A stretch of DNA of 64,000 nt from Plantimonas leprariae (GTDB lineage Bacteria; Pseudomonadota; Alphaproteobacteria; Rhizobiales; Rhizobiaceae), in the NCBI RefSeq assembly GCF_008802405.1, contig NZ_VZDO01000001.1:434001-498000 (forward strand). The letters are read 5' to 3'. Numbering within the stretch: the first letter of the stretch is position 1; each line of letters opens with the position of its first letter. A program made the translations under genes and the position numbers. This document shows positions 53,024 through 57,901 of this stretch, one piece after another. The notes under the pieces were generated by a model that saw only the letters and a program-made list of their open reading frames with translations, had not been told where the DNA came from and did no database searches.

Positions 53024-54115
53024 ATGCGCCGGATGACGAACTGCGCGCGTGTTCCCGTCGTCGCCGTTCCTGCCAGGGACGAGGAGGAGCGCCTGCCGCC
53101 TCTCCTCGCGGCGCTGGGCGGCCAGACCTGGCTCGATGCCGGCGGGGCCCGCCTGCGCGTCGTGCTCGTCCTCAACAACTGCACGGACGATTCCGCCGGC
53201 GCCGCGATCCGGGCTGCGGCCGCGCAGCCGCGTCTCGCGCTCGACGTGGTCGAGGTTTCGCTGCCGCCGGACGCGGCGCATGTCGGCACAGCACGCCGCA
53301 TGGCGATGGAGCGCGTGCTGGAGGGATGCGACCCCACTTCCGTGGCGCTTCTCACCACCGATGCCGACGCCGTGCCCGCGCCGGACTGGATCGAGGCGAA
53401 CCTTTACGCCATCGCAGCGGGCGCGGACCTCGTCGGCGGCCTGATCGTCGGCGATCCCGCCGAGGAGGCGCGCCTCGGCCCGGGCTTCCGGCGGCGGGCC
53501 GAGGCCTTTCTCGACTATGCGGCGCTTGCCGACCGCCTGGCCGCGCTGATCGACCCGCTGCCGCACGATCCCTGGCCTCGGCACCGCGACCATACGGGCG
53601 CGAGCCTTGCGGTTCGCGGCGAGGTGTATGCGGCGGTCGGCGGCATGCCGCCCCTCCCCTTCCGGGAGGATCTCGCCTTCGCCAGCCGCGTACGCCTCGC
53701 CGGCGGCCGGCTGCGCCACGATTCGCTGGTCCGCGTCGAGGTCTCGGCACGCCTCGCCGGGCGGGCGCCGGGCGGGATGGCCGACTGCTTGAAGGAATGG
53801 CTGCGGGCGGAGGCGGAGAACCGCCCGATCCTCGTGGAAGCGCCCGACGCGATCGAAGCGCGGCTCGTCCTTCGGCGCGCCTTGCGGGACCTGGACGGCG
53901 CCGGCGTGGCCGAGCGGCGCCGAGCCGCCGAACGGTTCGGCCTCGATCCGCGCGGTTTCTCGGACGCGACCGGCGCACCGCTGCCTGGCTTCGCGCTGGC
54001 CGAGCTCTTTGCGCCGGACGCACCGGACGCGCCGGCGACCGTGCCGGTGGAAGCGGCGAGCGCGGCCTTGCGCGCGGCGATCGCCCGGCTGGAAGGCGAA
54101 CGCCATGCGGCTTGA
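53024..54115 (+). CDS. Glycosyltransferase family 2
   Basis: A 363-residue GT-A fold enzyme: VVAVPARDEEERLPPLLAALGGQ at the start, LVLNNCTDDS next, and the metal-binding TTDADAVPAPDWIE (DxD). Later PFREDLAFASRVRLAGGRL gives the acceptor-side acidic residues. No membrane span is seen. The start at 53024 is chosen over longer frames because similarity begins there; 53033 is possible. Donor and acceptor are unknown. It is the first gene of a tight four-gene operon and overlaps the next gene by 11 bases. Confidence 0.85.
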   Translation: MRRMTNCARVPVVAVPARDEEERLPPLLAALGGQTWLDAGGARLRVVLVLNNCTDDSAGAAIRAAAAQPRLALDVVEVSLPPDAAHVGTARRMAMERVLEGCDPTSVALLTTDADAVPAPDWIEANLYAIAAGADLVGGLIVGDPAEEARLGPGFRRRAEAFLDYAALADRLAALIDPLPHDPWPRHRDHTGASLAVRGEVYAAVGGMPPLPFREDLAFASRVRLAGGRLRHDSLVRVEVSARLAGRAPGGMADCLKEWLRAEAENRPILVEAPDAIEARLVLRRALRDLDGAGVAERRRAAERFGLDPRGFSDATGAPLPGFALAELFAPDAPDAPATVPVEAASAALRAAIARLEGERHAA

Positions 54116-55214
54116 CCCGATCCGCCATGCGGTCGACGCCGACGATCTGGCGGCGGAGATCGGGCGCGACGCCGCCAAGCACGACCGCGATGGCAGCTTT
54201 CCGGCGGAAGGCTTCGACGCGCTGCGGCGGCATGGCCTCGTCGGCTGGCCGCCGCTGGCGCCCGGCGAGATCGGTCGGCTCCTCCGCCTCCTCGCTGCGG
54301 TCGGTCGCGGCGACCTCAGCGTCGGGCGGATCTATGAGGGCCACGTCAACGCGCTGTTCCTGATCCGCGCCTACGGCACGGCGGATCAGCGGGACCATCT
54401 CGAAGCGGCGGCCGCACGCGGCGAGCTCTTCGGCGTCTGGAACACGGACGCGCCGGACCGGCCGCTCCGGTTTGGGGACGACGGGTGCCTCGAGGGCGCG
54501 AAGAACTTCTCTTCCGGCGTCGACGGCCTCGCGCAGGCGGTCGTCACGGTGCCGAGCCTAGAGGGACGCCGGATGCTGGTCGTGCCGCTGGACGGGCGAC
54601 CGGTCGACCGGTCCTGGTGGCACCCGATGGGCATGCGCGCGTCCGGCAGTCACATCGTCGATTTCGAGGACCTGCCCATCCGGCCGGAATGGCTGCTTGG
54701 CAGCCCCGACGATTACGTCCGCCCGCCCTGGTTCTTCGCCGGCGCGATCCGCTTCGCCGCGGTGCATGTCGGCGGCATGCATGCGGTGTTCGACACGGCC
54801 CTCCAGCATCTCCAGGAGACCGGGCGCGCCGGCGATCCCTACCAGCTCCACCGTCTCGCCCGGATGGGGATCGCGGTGGAGGAAGGCTACAACTGGCTCG
54901 ACCGCACCGCGCTCGCCTGGGAAGCGGCGGCGGCCGATCCGGCGGCGGGCGACTCGCTCGTCGCGACTGCGAACGCCGCCCGGAGCGCGATCGAGGCGCA
55001 TGCCCTCGCCGTCCTGGAAGAGGCCGAGCGGTCGGTCGGCGCGGCCGGCATGATCGCGCCGCATCCGCTGGAGCGGCTCGTCCGCGACCTTCGCACCTAT
55101 CTGCGCCAGCCGAACCCCGACGGCGCGCTCGCCTCCTTCGGGAAAGCCGTCGCGGAGGGTGGCTGGCGCCCGGGCCGGGCGGGACTGCCGGCGAAGGGCG
55201 GCGGCGGGCGATGA
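54105..55214 (+). CDS. Acyl-CoA dehydrogenase-like protein
   Basis: A 369-residue protein, short for an ACAD. The N-terminal helical domain has FPAEGFDALRRHGLVGWPPL; the middle has an LFGVWNTDAPDRPLRF region in place of the usual FAD-contact WITNG pattern, then GMRASGSHIVDFEDLPIRPEWLL; the C-terminal bundle is degenerate. I do not see an obvious catalytic Glu. In this context it may act on an acyl-carrier-bound or other unusual substrate rather than fatty acyl-CoA. It overlaps genes on both sides. Confidence 0.75.
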   Translation: MRLDPIRHAVDADDLAAEIGRDAAKHDRDGSFPAEGFDALRRHGLVGWPPLAPGEIGRLLRLLAAVGRGDLSVGRIYEGHVNALFLIRAYGTADQRDHLEAAAARGELFGVWNTDAPDRPLRFGDDGCLEGAKNFSSGVDGLAQAVVTVPSLEGRRMLVVPLDGRPVDRSWWHPMGMRASGSHIVDFEDLPIRPEWLLGSPDDYVRPPWFFAGAIRFAAVHVGGMHAVFDTALQHLQETGRAGDPYQLHRLARMGIAVEEGYNWLDRTALAWEAAAADPAAGDSLVATANAARSAIEAHALAVLEEAERSVGAAGMIAPHPLERLVRDLRTYLRQPNPDGALASFGKAVAEGGWRPGRAGLPAKGGGGR

Positions 55215-55918
55215 GGCTCGATCCCGCCTCGATCGAGGCCTCGCGCATCCTCGTCGTCGCCCCGCATCAGGACGACGAGTCGCTCGGCTGCGGCGGGCTC
55301 ATCGCCACGTTGGCGCCGCTCGGCCGGCGCTTCCACACGGTGTTCGTGACGGATGGCGGGGCGTCGCATCGCAACTCCGCTTCCTGGCCGCGCGAGCGGC
55401 TCGCGGCGGCGCGCGAGGCGGAGGCGGCGGAAGCGCTGCGACGGCTCGGGATCGGCGACCATCCCCGCAGCTTCTTTCGCCTTCCCGATGCCGCCATGCC
55501 GGCGGCGGGAACGGCGGAACACGGCAAGGCGCTTCGGGCCTTCGTCGACATCGTGCGGGGCTTCCGGCCGGATCTCGTCCTCCTGCCCTGGCGGCGCGAC
55601 CCGCATTGCGATCACCGCGACGCCTTCGCGCTCGCGAGCGGGGCGCTGGCGGCCACGGACATGCCTGCCGCCACGCTCGAATACGCGATCTGGCTCGACG
55701 AACTTGGTAGCCCCGAGGACCGGCCGCAGCCGGATGAGGCCGAGCGCGTCGACTTCGACGTCGCCGCCGTTCTGCCGGCGAAGCGGGCGGCGGTCGCGGC
55801 GCATCTTTCGCAGACGGGCGATCTCATCCACGACGATCCGGACGGTTTCCACCTGACGCCGGCGACGATCGAACGCCTCGCCGGACCGGTGGAAGCCTAT
55901 TGGCGGCCGCACCGGTGA
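55211..55918 (+). CDS. PIG-L/LmbE-type deacetylase
   Basis: A 235-residue zinc hydrolase. The metal site is seen in VVAPHQDDESLGCGG (H, D, D) and in DPHCDHRDAF, the second zinc histidine region. PIG-L proteins remove N-acetyl groups from GlcNAc in GPI anchors, mycothiol, bacillithiol or antibiotics. It overlaps the ACAD-like gene by 4 bases (ATGA) and the methyltransferase by 4 (GTGA), so all three are translationally coupled. The substrate is unknown. Confidence 0.88.
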   Translation: MRLDPASIEASRILVVAPHQDDESLGCGGLIATLAPLGRRFHTVFVTDGGASHRNSASWPRERLAAAREAEAAEALRRLGIGDHPRSFFRLPDAAMPAAGTAEHGKALRAFVDIVRGFRPDLVLLPWRRDPHCDHRDAFALASGALAATDMPAATLEYAIWLDELGSPEDRPQPDEAERVDFDVAAVLPAKRAAVAAHLSQTGDLIHDDPDGFHLTPATIERLAGPVEAYWRPHR

Positions 55919-56496
55919 AGCGGATCGACGCCGCCGGCTTCGAGGTGAAGTTCCGCGAGACCATCGACCCCTGGAACTACGCCGCCTCGCCCTTCGAGGC
56001 CTACAAGCGGGGCGTCCTCCTGCGCGCCTGCGGCAGCGACCGACGTTACGGCCGGGCGCTGGAATTCGGCTGCGCCATCGGCGAGACGTCGCGTTTCCTG
56101 TCGCCCCGCTGCCTCAGGCTTCTCGCGGTTGACGCCTCGCCGACCGCCCTTGCCGAGGCAGAGCGGCGGAACGCCGGCAACCGCCGCGTCGCCTTCCGCC
56201 GCTCCCTCCTGCCCCGCGAGGTGCCGCGCGGGCGCTTCGATCTCGTGGTGCTGTCGGAGGTCGCCTACTACCTGACGAAGCGCGAGCTGGCGATGCTGAT
56301 GCAGAAGGTCGCGCGGATCACCGCGCCTGGCGGGCGGGTCGTCGTGCTGCACCACGTGCGCCCCTTCGGCGACGCCTCGCAACTGCCGGCGCTGGCGCAG
56401 GCCCGTGCCTGCGCCGCGCTAGCGCGGACGATGCGGCGCGTCCATGCCGCCAGCCGCGGCCGCTTCGAATGCGCGGCCTACCTGAAACCCCGCTGA
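55915..56496 (+). CDS. NodS-like SAM-dependent methyltransferase
   Basis: A 193-residue methyltransferase with a GTG start at 55915 overlapping the preceding stop. The SAM motif is ALEFGCAIGETSRFL, motif II LLAVDASPTAL, and later DLVVLSEVAYYLTKREL. The EVKFRETIDPWNYAASPFE start and the EVAYYL acidic motif match NodS, which N-methylates the free amine of deacetylated Nod-factor precursors. Coupled to a deacetylase, it may methylate the amine freed by PIG-L. Confidence 0.85.
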   Translation: MKRIDAAGFEVKFRETIDPWNYAASPFEAYKRGVLLRACGSDRRYGRALEFGCAIGETSRFLSPRCLRLLAVDASPTALAEAERRNAGNRRVAFRRSLLPREVPRGRFDLVVLSEVAYYLTKRELAMLMQKVARITAPGGRVVVLHHVRPFGDASQLPALAQARACAALARTMRRVHAASRGRFECAAYLKPR

Positions 56497-56503
56497 GCGA
56501 GCA

Positions 56504-57901
56504 TCATTCCTGGCGCTCGGCGGCGCAGAGCTTCTCGACCGTGCGCACATAGGCGTCGGCATCGAATTTCTTCAGCGTGTTGTCGCCCTGGTAGCGCACG
56601 GTGCCGAACACCTTGCGCCGCCCCCAGGGCCGATCGTGCAGGCCGTAGACCCAGCCGACATTGGTGAACGAGTTCGGGTCCCGCCCGTCGAGAAAGAAGC
56701 GGTTGTTGATGCGAAGCGTCCGCTCGAAGCCCTCTTTCGGCGAGCGCGACCATTCGAGGATCTTCTTGCCCCAGTACATGCGCAGGTGATTGTGCATGAA
56801 GCCGGTCTCGCGCATCTCCGCCATCGCCGCGTTCCAGTAGCGATCGTGCGTCCGGCCTTCGACCAGTTCGTCGTCCGAATAGAGCTGCGGCCGCTCATCC
56901 TTCGCGTGCTCGGCGAGCGCCTTTCGCGCCCATTCGGGAATGGCCCGGTCGTAGGCGTCGTAGCCGTCGGTGTAGAAGACGTGGTTCATCGCGAGCTCGC
57001 GGCGCACCACCACCTCCTCGACGTAAGCCGACTTGTCGTCCTCGCCGCCCTTCGCCGCCGCGCGGACGACGAGCGCGATCTCGACCGGCGAGATCTGCCC
57101 GAAATGCAGGTAAGGGCTCATATGCGAAGCGGCGCCCGCCTCCGGCTTCCCGCGCACCTCGCCGTAGTCGGCGAAGGGACCGGCGAGGAAGGCCTTCAGC
57201 CGCCGCCGCGCCTCGGTCTCGCCGCCGCGAAAGCGCTTCACCGGCGGCACCGAGCGATCGAGCGTCATCCCGGCGAGCACCTTATCCGGATCGGAGATGT
57301 CGAGCTGGCTCTTCAGGCCGAGCGCCGCCGCATCGTGCTTCGGCTTCACTGCCGCGAGCGGCTGCAGGAACTCGTCCAGCCGCTTGCCGATCTTCGGGCG
57401 CAGCGTCCGGGCGGCGAATTCGTGGTGGTCGGATGCGGTCTCGAGCGGCACCACCACGTCGCCCTCCACCTGCACGACGCGGGTCGACACGGCCTTCAGG
57501 ATTTCCTCGTACCAGCGCTTCTGGATGGCGAGATAGCCGCGGTCGAGCACCAGGATCGCGGCATGCTTCGCGAGGTCGATCGCGATCTCGGCGGGCGAGC
57601 ATTTCCGCATCACGAAGCCGATCCTGCGCTTTGCAAGACCGGCGGCCGCGTCCGACAGGCCCTGCAGCAGGAAGGCGTAGTGCCGCTCGTTCGCTTCCGG
57701 GAAGCCGTCCGAGCCGTCGAGCAGGCCGAAGCAGGCGACGATGGGGAGGCCGAGCCGGTTCGCCTCGGCGATCGCGTATTCGAGCGCCGGGTTGAAGGAG
57801 GAGCGGTTGGCCTGCTGCAGGAGGTAGAGGACGTAGGTCCCCTTCTCGTTCGCCGGCCGGTCCGCGAGGACCCTGATTCGCTCCGCCTCGATTTCCGACA
57901 T
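56504..57901 (-). CDS. phrB: Class II CPD photolyase
   Basis: A 465-residue flavoprotein that splits cyclobutane pyrimidine dimers with light. The N-terminal RPANEKGTYVLYLLQQANRSSFNPALEYAI is the class II antenna-domain style. Late motifs TGFMHNHLRMYWGKKILEW, NNRFFLDGRDPNSFTNVGWVYGLHDRPWG and the KVFGTVRYQ end are the FAD-binding part of this class. It is convergent with the NodS-like gene and divergent from a phosphoesterase gene. Confidence 0.95.
   Translation of the reverse strand: MSEIEAERIRVLADRPANEKGTYVLYLLQQANRSSFNPALEYAIAEANRLGLPIVACFGLLDGSDGFPEANERHYAFLLQGLSDAAAGLAKRRIGFVMRKCSPAEIAIDLAKHAAILVLDRGYLAIQKRWYEEILKAVSTRVVQVEGDVVVPLETASDHHEFAARTLRPKIGKRLDEFLQPLAAVKPKHDAAALGLKSQLDISDPDKVLAGMTLDRSVPPVKRFRGGETEARRRLKAFLAGPFADYGEVRGKPEAGAASHMSPYLHFGQISPVEIALVVRAAAKGGEDDKSAYVEEVVVRRELAMNHVFYTDGYDAYDRAIPEWARKALAEHAKDERPQLYSDDELVEGRTHDRYWNAAMAEMRETGFMHNHLRMYWGKKILEWSRSPKEGFERTLRINNRFFLDGRDPNSFTNVGWVYGLHDRPWGRRKVFGTVRYQGDNTLKKFDADAYVRTVEKLCAAERQE

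Follow-up and report, generated by a model that had tools for sequence, protein, structure and literature searches.

A recurrent four-gene bacterial cassette that may build a modified amino-sugar glycoside

Four overlapping genes within a 64,000-nucleotide stretch of a Plantimonas leprariae contig (the window), encoding a glycosyltransferase (GT), a flavoenzyme of the acyl-CoA dehydrogenase (ACAD) fold, a PIG-L deacetylase, and a NodS-like methyltransferase (MT), form a cassette that recurs in several phyla and whose grouping is not due to chance. Tentatively, and with a little less than even confidence, the four genes are read as one short pathway whose product would be a modified amino-sugar glycoside, with protection against stress as its most probable role. 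The GT and ACAD-like genes overlap by 11 bp, the ACAD-like and PIG-L genes by 4 bp (ATGA), and the PIG-L and MT genes by 4 bp (GTGA), overlaps from which joint translation may be inferred (Table 1). Coordinates and overlaps were re-derived and agree throughout with those given in an earlier sequence-only reading of this DNA.

Table 1. Genes of the cassette at positions 53024–56496 of the window
Gene product	Position	Strand	Start codon and length
GT-A fold glycosyltransferase, GT2-like	53024..54115	+	ATG start, 363 aa
ACAD-fold flavoenzyme, distinct subfamily	54105..55214	+	ATG start, 369 aa
PIG-L/LmbE zinc N-deacetylase	55211..55918	+	ATG start, 235 aa
NodS-like class I SAM methyltransferase (MT)	55915..56496	+	GTG start, 193 aa

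Using an evenly drawn sample of 398 Pseudomonadota genomes, in which only the best candidates per genome were scored (4 ACAD, 6 PIG-L, and 8 MT), the PIG-L family was found in 39 genomes, the MT family in 43, and both in 31 (expected, 4.2), and all genomes with the close ACAD family (12/12) also carried the other two. Within 1.5 kb of these 12 family ACADs, an MT gene was present at 12/12, PIG-L at 10/12, and a GT at 6/12, compared to 0/25 for each of the three around generic ACAD loci. Among the best 80 of 583 confirmed family-ACAD stretches, many of them close kin, PIG-L occurred within 3 kb at 61 loci, MT within 4 kb at 73, and GT within 6 kb at 64, with the full four-gene set at 53; the flanks in this set (3–6 kb) are wider than those of the controls (1.5 kb), and the like-for-like comparison is therefore that of the 12 sampled loci. 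The linkage was also apparent from the partner genes, with ACAD and MT within 1.5 kb at 24 of 30 PIG-L-seeded loci and ACAD alongside at 28 of 30 MT-seeded loci, two sets that overlap in genomes (ACAD profile widened with L133, L134, and L136; members counted above 130 bits, generic ACADs scoring 81–116 bits). At five loci, PIG-L and MT are fused in one open frame. The earlier proposal of a conserved GT, deacetylase, and NodS-like MT set recurring elsewhere is thereby borne out, the families coinciding far above expectation rather than rarely. Its placement in alphaproteobacteria was correct as to recurrence and too narrow as to range, with the cassette also present in cyanobacteria, Bacteroidota, Deinococcus, beta- and gammaproteobacteria, and actinobacteria.

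Incomplete and variant cassettes were also observed. PIG-L was unlinked in 19 of the best 80 of 583 loci, and a search of four genomes recovered a family PIG-L elsewhere in three. Afifella (L047) possesses GT, ACAD, and MT with no PIG-L anywhere in the genome at E ≤ 1e-15, and five loci have an ACAD without linked partners (L033, L087, L088, L091, and L092). In one example from Rubrobacter, a polysaccharide deacetylase gene (PF01522) is located directly 5′ of the ACAD, with no PIG-L within 3 kb, a replacement suggesting that deacetylation is a required step. An extra gene in the Methylobacterium operons was considered as a deacetylase and dropped, as it encodes a LigD 3′-phosphoesterase domain. 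The domain fused to the ACAD in Deinococcus proved to be GH1-like, and the fusion was dropped as a GT-ACAD candidate. All four gene types are present on a plasmid of Acinetobacter soli (L133).

The window GT matched PF00535 (24.5 bits; Pfam cut-off, 23.3), with DxD (D113/D115) and ED (E215/D216) motifs invariant in 45 aligned sequences, and its AF2 model (pLDDT, 95.4) matched only assorted GT-A enzymes (Foldseek; TM, about 0.4–0.5). The PIG-L product was assigned to PF02585 (97.1 bits; cut-off, 28.2) and its zinc-site motifs, PHxDDE and DPHxDH, were invariant in 40 sequences (P18, H19, D21, D22, E23 and D130, P131, H132, D134, H135); the NCBIfam cut-offs for BshB1, BshB2, and MshB were all missed, with BshB1 the top model (66.9 bits; cut-off, 182.5). 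The MT matched the NodS family PF05401 (58.4 bits, over the Pfam 24), shares a DPW...E motif with NodS, and matches PDB 3ofj (E 9e-31), while its 77 bits against the NCBIfam NodS equivalog are far under 300; judged by these scores, it is a relative of NodS, not NodS itself.

Nod-factor synthesis (NodC/NodB/NodS) resembles the cassette in its logic of glycosyl transfer, N-deacetylation, and N-methylation. The parallel drawn in the sequence-only reading stands for the logic of deacetylation and N-methylation and for the MT family, but not for a processive chitin synthase, as QxxRW, the motif of such NodC-type enzymes, was absent from the window GT on inspection by eye. Further, the cassette deacetylase is PIG-L and not NodB, save for the NodB-fold protein (PF01522) of Rubrobacter, and the cassette flavoenzyme is not known to have a counterpart in the Nod system. 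Without QxxRW in the GT and with no NodA-like gene recognised by annotation among the annotated neighbours, a lipochito-oligosaccharide is an unlikely product.

The ACAD-like protein matched two Pfam families weakly (PF00441, 31.4 bits; PF02771, 23.8 bits), and its AF2 model confirmed the ACAD fold (Foldseek E as low as 2e-17; pLDDT, 93.6). Across 41 sequences of the subfamily, E78, H80, W112, and Q335 are invariant, and the flavin-site K-x-F-x-S/T is kept (K133, 41/41; S/T137, 41/41). The position of the ACAD catalytic Glu (YEGT motif) is occupied by Gln in 41/41 family members, compared to Glu in 24/25 generic ACAD controls, and Gln was again found in 37/37 rows of a second set, of which about half form a diverged non-alphaproteobacterial branch and at least one is a copy of the window protein. 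The residue before R216, which we take to be the site of the alternative base on the IVD/LCAD-type helix, is I or W in the family rows printed, from an alignment without any IVD sequence.

Among solved structures, both the family profiles and 3/3 single members tested had a group D flavin monooxygenase as their best relative. For the family profile, DszC (E 6e-28) exceeded the true ACAD 4u83 (E 1.4e-21), and for two members outside the window's branch DszC or MsuC was the best match. The window protein itself was closest to KijD3 (E 1.5e-13), a match in two stretches of which the better spans just residues 13–59, followed by 5gj7 (E 2.8e-9) and 4u83 (E 2.9e-9); in fold, 4u83 is close to the model (TM, 0.81), with KijD3 among the top matches. 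Because the catalytic Glu is missing and the nearest solved relatives are flavin monooxygenases, an acyl-CoA dehydrogenase step is doubted, and the product is proposed to be a group D flavin monooxygenase instead. The role of acyl-chain dehydrogenase was dropped on these two counts, and the original suggestion that the enzyme oxidises or desaturates an acyl part is probably wrong. A true dehydrogenase of this kind, its product an N-methylated glycolipid or a lipochito-oligosaccharide-like signal, is judged improbable; it would fit the ACAD fold and Pfam names, the nearly equal fold match of true ACADs, the MT family shared with NodS, the AMP-binding protein in the vicinity of the solitary ACAD of L033, and the acyl-CoA thioesterase close to L036, but runs counter to the Gln substitution, the monooxygenase relatives, and the missing QxxRW. 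In addition, the neighbours annotated, which cover part of the neighbour clusters, showed no recurring gene for an acyltransferase, a CoA ligase, or ETF.

DszC and MsuC are S-oxygenases, and KijD3 and the nitrososynthases (DnmZ and kin) are group D flavin enzymes that N-oxygenate amino sugars, their substrates being dTDP-deoxyamino sugars in antibiotic clusters; the KijD3 structure titles likewise name a dTDP-amino sugar. The window protein shares its fold with these enzymes, but the KijD3 match is mostly confined to the short stretch above and members beyond the window's branch are nearer to DszC or MsuC. The best relatives vary by member, so the enzyme may be an N-, S-, or C-oxygenase. The cassette does not regularly come with a flavin reductase, and an FAD oxidoreductase was seen in the operon only in Rubrobacter.

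In the proposed pathway, the GT2 enzyme would transfer an N-acetylhexosamine, probably GlcNAc, onto an acceptor common to most bacteria, the PIG-L enzyme, of established family and zinc ligands, would remove the acetyl group, and the MT would N-methylate the freed amine. The flavoenzyme, to judge from its monooxygenase kinship and lost ACAD base, would perform an oxygenation, most simply of the same nitrogen, yielding a hydroxylamine or nitrone; this step and the N-methylation could occur in either order. Weighing against this pathway are the short KijD3 match, the closeness of true ACADs, the varying best relatives, the irregular presence of a flavin reductase, the solitary ACADs, the cassettes of Afifella and Deinococcus, and the missing EcfG-type motif in the window. 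In its boldest form, the pathway would yield a new glucosaminide, either N-methyl-N-hydroxy or nitrone in type, that acts as a natural radical scavenger in the manner of hydroxylamines and nitroxides, made by drying-, UV-, and oxidation-tolerant bacteria of several phyla and spread by plasmids, which is offered as a long shot.

It is somewhat unlikely, though worth weighing, that the flavoenzyme of the same pathway acts away from the sugar nitrogen, on acceptor sulfur (thiol or thioether) or on a C–H bond, or converts the amine to an imine with subsequent loss of nitrogen. DszC and MsuC as best relatives of the profile and two single members are consistent with such a target, as is BshB1 as top NCBIfam model of PIG-L, but KijD3 as the window protein's own best match, albeit via a short stretch, is not. 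With a thiol acceptor, the product would be akin to mycothiol or bacillithiol. Bacillithiol, mycothiol, and N-methyl-bacillithiol are protective metabolites made by a GT, PIG-L deacetylation of a GlcNAc conjugate, and amine modification, and the combination of GT, PIG-L, and N-MT is reminiscent of the last of these. BshA and MshA are GT4 enzymes, however, compared to the GT2-like cassette enzyme (PF00535); in addition, the BshB/MshB cut-offs are missed, the flavoenzyme is extra, and neither BshC nor a cysteine ligase was recognised by annotation among the annotated neighbours.

On plasmids, the cassette often stands as a unit by itself. Stress-list genes (catalase, ferritin-like/Dps, Ku-LigD, trehalose, spore-photoproduct-lyase, and general-stress genes; a list drawn up after the loci had been seen) occurred in 8/12 annotated plasmid stretches with the cassette and in 0/12 control stretches from the same plasmids (Fisher p = 0.001), as counted from incomplete gene tables and omitting L037 (no annotation), L137 (one trifunctional gene rather than the cassette), and L138 (no listed gene; a second copy on the same record as L038). 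One stretch, L135, has MT and GT only, with no family ACAD match, and without it and its paired control the counts are 7/11 and 0/11. Control L156 contains two off-list genes, annotated ‘peroxide stress protein YaaA’ and ‘SOS response-associated peptidase’, and counting this stretch gives 1/12 (Fisher p = 0.009). An EcfG-like motif (relaxed GGAAC-N-GTT) was located upstream in 7/28 alphaproteobacterial loci (mean of 200 shuffles, 1.06); in the window no EcfG-type motif precedes the cassette, and the stricter motif is found nowhere in its whole length. Control by a general-stress sigma factor is unproven, and a link of the cassette to stress is favoured.

The plasmid context also bears on a further reading, considered unlikely, in which the enzymes, rather than making a free internal molecule, modify a polysaccharide of the cell surface, a compound for export, or a lipid-linked glycan. 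Polymer and LPS-type GTs among the GT fold matches would suit a surface glycan, as would the GT4, UDP-galactopyranose mutase, and GH1-like genes near the cassette in Chryseobacterium and the capacity of PIG-L enzymes for oligosaccharide substrates (diacetylchitobiose deacetylase), and MFS transporter genes adjoining the cassette at nine Methylobacterium loci and on one Bradyrhizobium plasmid would suit export. Against this, the annotated neighbours include no gene recognised as a glycan ligase or polymerase, and the cassette is frequently a plasmid unit of its own, near stress genes in 8/12 stretches.

The internal, amino-sugar reading, if true, would make the product of this small and self-contained cassette a common stress metabolite, so far overlooked partly because one gene carries a fatty-acid-enzyme annotation. 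No name for the product of this several-phyla set was found in the open-licence PMC literature searched, in agreement with the sequence-only reading. In Acinetobacter baumannii, ACICU_02432-02435 are tabulated as one operon of a glycosyltransferase, a SAM methyltransferase, LmbE, and an ACAD-related protein, and are lowered together with trehalose genes in colistin-dependent strains, the available part of the source stating no function (PMC5660220). Matched by annotation, this operon is probably the same cassette. The same gene types adjoin blsA in the available part of a second source (PMC6240043).

The cassette spanning 53024–56496 of the window encodes a glycosyltransferase (GT), an acyl-CoA dehydrogenase (ACAD)-like flavoenzyme, an LmbE-type deacetylase (PIG-L) and a NodS-like SAM methyltransferase (MT), and the gene coordinates agree with the overlaps of 11, 4 and 4 bp given by the sequence-only reading. 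A short frame without a Pfam match and a PBP1-type gene lie upstream, and the downstream neighbour is a photolyase-related gene, convergent with the cassette, with a clear DNA_photolyase domain and a weak FAD-binding domain.

Genes of the cassette and its downstream neighbour in the window
Feature	Position	Strand	Remark
GT	53024-54115	+	cassette gene 1
ACAD-like	54105-55214	+	cassette gene 2
PIG-L	55211-55918	+	cassette gene 3
NodS-like MT	55915-56496	+	cassette gene 4
Photolyase-related	56504-57901	-	

Using a seven-sequence ACAD alignment, at least 593 stretches of genome contigs were matched, of which 583 were confirmed and the best 80 of the 583 kept. These 80 loci included Aurantimonadaceae and other Hyphomicrobiales (59–67% identity between the window ACAD and Aureimonas and Aurantimonas loci), Methylobacterium, Skermanella, many cyanobacteria, one Puniceicoccaceae and Bacteroidota (Hymenobacter, Mucilaginibacter, Chryseobacterium, Dyadobacter, Neolewinella and others). 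The identity to the Aureimonas and Aurantimonas loci suggests that the window's organism is related to them. Plasmid records added Deinococcus, Sphingomonas, Sulfitobacter, Bradyrhizobium, Komagataeibacter and Rubrobacter and the MT led further to Acinetobacter, Cupriavidus, Kitasatospora and Paraburkholderia, the last with MT and GT only. The cassette genes are linked: among the best 80 ACAD loci, PIG-L occurred within 3 kb at 61, MT within 4 kb at 73 and GT within 6 kb at 64, with all four genes together at 53 (47 of the 62 loci flanked on each side by 3 kb of contig). Cassette partners were found at none of 25 generic ACAD loci, for which flanks of 1.5 kb were searched as opposed to 3–6 kb; at equal flanks (1.5 kb), 12 ACAD loci from the even genome sample had MT in 12, PIG-L in 10 and GT in 6. 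Gene order was GT-ACAD-PIGL-MT in window-type alphaproteobacteria and ACAD-PIGL-MT in cyanobacteria and Bacteroidota, where the GT lies downstream and in most cases on the opposite strand. Counted stop to stop, PIG-L and MT occupied one open frame at loci L076, L104, L112, L116 and L129.

The even sample comprised 398 Pseudomonadota genomes. Twelve of them had the close ACAD family (E ≤ 1e-60), and all 12 also carried the PIG-L and MT families (present in 39 and 43 genomes of the sample, respectively; E ≤ 1e-25). PIG-L and MT co-occurred in 31 genomes compared to 4.2 expected (hypergeometric p ~5e-29, uncorrected for kinship). Within 1.5 kb, 24/30 PIG-L-seeded loci had both ACAD and MT, and MT-seeded loci had ACAD in 28/30 and PIG-L in 23/30, the genomes of the two sets overlapping. 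Of 289 genomes in an earlier class sample, 5 strongly matched a single ACAD sequence (E ≤ 1e-39), and ACAD was present in 4/198 Bacteroidota genomes, the sample centre included. The recurrence proposed by the sequence-only reading is borne out by scan and sample alike and is widespread; a named product, which it had thought lacking, was absent from the open-licence literature searched.

PIG-L was unlinked at 19 ACAD loci; in three of four such genomes searched, a family PIG-L was located elsewhere, and none was found in the fourth, Afifella. In one Pseudomonadota genome (G421), GT adjoins PIG-L while ACAD and MT share a different contig. At the single Rubrobacter example, no PIG-L was found within 3 kb of the ACAD, and a polysaccharide deacetylase gene lies immediately 5' of it.

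The zinc-site residues of PIG-L were invariant across 40 aligned sequences, and its closest solved structures were TT1542 and diacetylchitobiose deacetylases. The top solved match of the MT was 4isc, an unnamed methyltransferase, followed by NodS (E = 9e-31). The GT had a weak GT2 family score and a confident GT-A fold model, with DxD and ED motifs invariant in 45 sequences; its sugar donor was not predictable from fold comparison.

The ACAD-like protein, also confidently modelled, had Foldseek top matches to 5gj7/5z8t (titled putative ACAD and flavin-containing monooxygenase), MAB_4123, KijD3 and DszC, with ordinary ACADs next at similar E-values and TM-scores. In single-sequence searches, the best solved relative of the window protein was KijD3, that of a cyanobacterial member DszC and that of a Mucilaginibacter member MsuC; all three are group D flavin monooxygenases. 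The KijD3 match (E = 1.5e-13) comprised two stretches, the best covering residues 13–59 only; the next hits were 5gj7 (2.8e-9) and 4u83 (2.9e-9), the latter a true ACAD. The ACAD catalytic base is lost: its Glu is replaced by Gln in 41/41 family members, compared to Glu in 24/25 generic controls, the exception appearing DszC-like at this position. A second set, roughly half of which belongs to a diverged branch from other Pseudomonadota classes, retained Gln in 37/37 members, and E78, H80 and W112 were present in 35/35 of its ungapped rows. In alignment, H80 falls on a catalytic His of DszC. The proposal of an uncharacterised amino-sugar pathway stands, with a flavoenzyme that is probably mis-annotated as an acyl-CoA dehydrogenase.

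A single amino group best accounts for three of the four enzymes: PIG-L would expose it, the NodS-like MT could methylate it and the proposed flavin monooxygenase could oxygenate it. Substrate, step order and oxygenated atom are as we infer them, and we tentatively propose glycosyl transfer, deacetylation, N-methylation and flavin oxygenation of one amino sugar, linked to stress. Because the KijD3 match is mostly a short N-terminal stretch, this proposal was given slightly less weight, and slightly more was given to the same pathway with a flavoenzyme acting on sulfur, carbon or otherwise than on the sugar nitrogen, which we regard as unlikely. An N-methyl-N-hydroxy (or nitrone) glucosaminide acting as a radical scavenger, similarly down-weighted, is an improbable product.

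The cassette may serve stress survival. Stress genes (catalase, ferritin-like/Dps, Ku-LigD, trehalose synthesis, spore photoproduct lyase and general-stress genes, a list drawn up after viewing the loci) occurred on 8/12 annotated plasmid stretches of the loci versus 0/12 like-length stretches elsewhere on the same plasmids. The Methylobacterium operon includes a LigD 3'-phosphoesterase-domain gene (L070:7306-7902) and adjoins two MFS transporter genes; one related MFS gene adjoins the Bradyrhizobium cassette. In Acinetobacter baumannii, compared with the cassette by gene annotation, PMC5660220 describes ACICU_02432-02435 (operon 'e': glycosyltransferase, SAM methyltransferase, LmbE, ACAD-related) as down 31- to 62-fold in colistin-dependent strains, together with trehalose-6-phosphate synthase and phosphatase. 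The neighbouring ACICU_02436 is described as a DUF2171 protein (PMC6330354), and genes of the cassette's types are placed next to the blue-light sensor blsA (PMC6240043); a BLUF-domain gene also lies ~5.7 kb from the cassette on a Bradyrhizobium plasmid (L034:1-14).

Several variants were observed. The Deinococcus ACAD (L032:4783-7023, L035:5543-7882) has a GH1-like glycosidase domain at its N-terminus that matches no Pfam family; in Chryseobacterium a homologue of this domain is encoded by a gene of its own (L084:15003-16193), 3' of GT4-like and UDP-galactopyranose mutase genes. A family ACAD without linked partners (L087:7142-9622), possibly another use of the enzyme, adjoins cytochrome b561 and DUF892 genes. 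A Sulfitobacter gene (L137:4366-7446) is annotated as a trifunctional glycosyltransferase/SAM methyltransferase/polysaccharide deacetylase, and several genomes from the family and order to which the window belongs also have MT-family matches in long open frames (~750–1200 aa), possibly a fused Nod-like logic.
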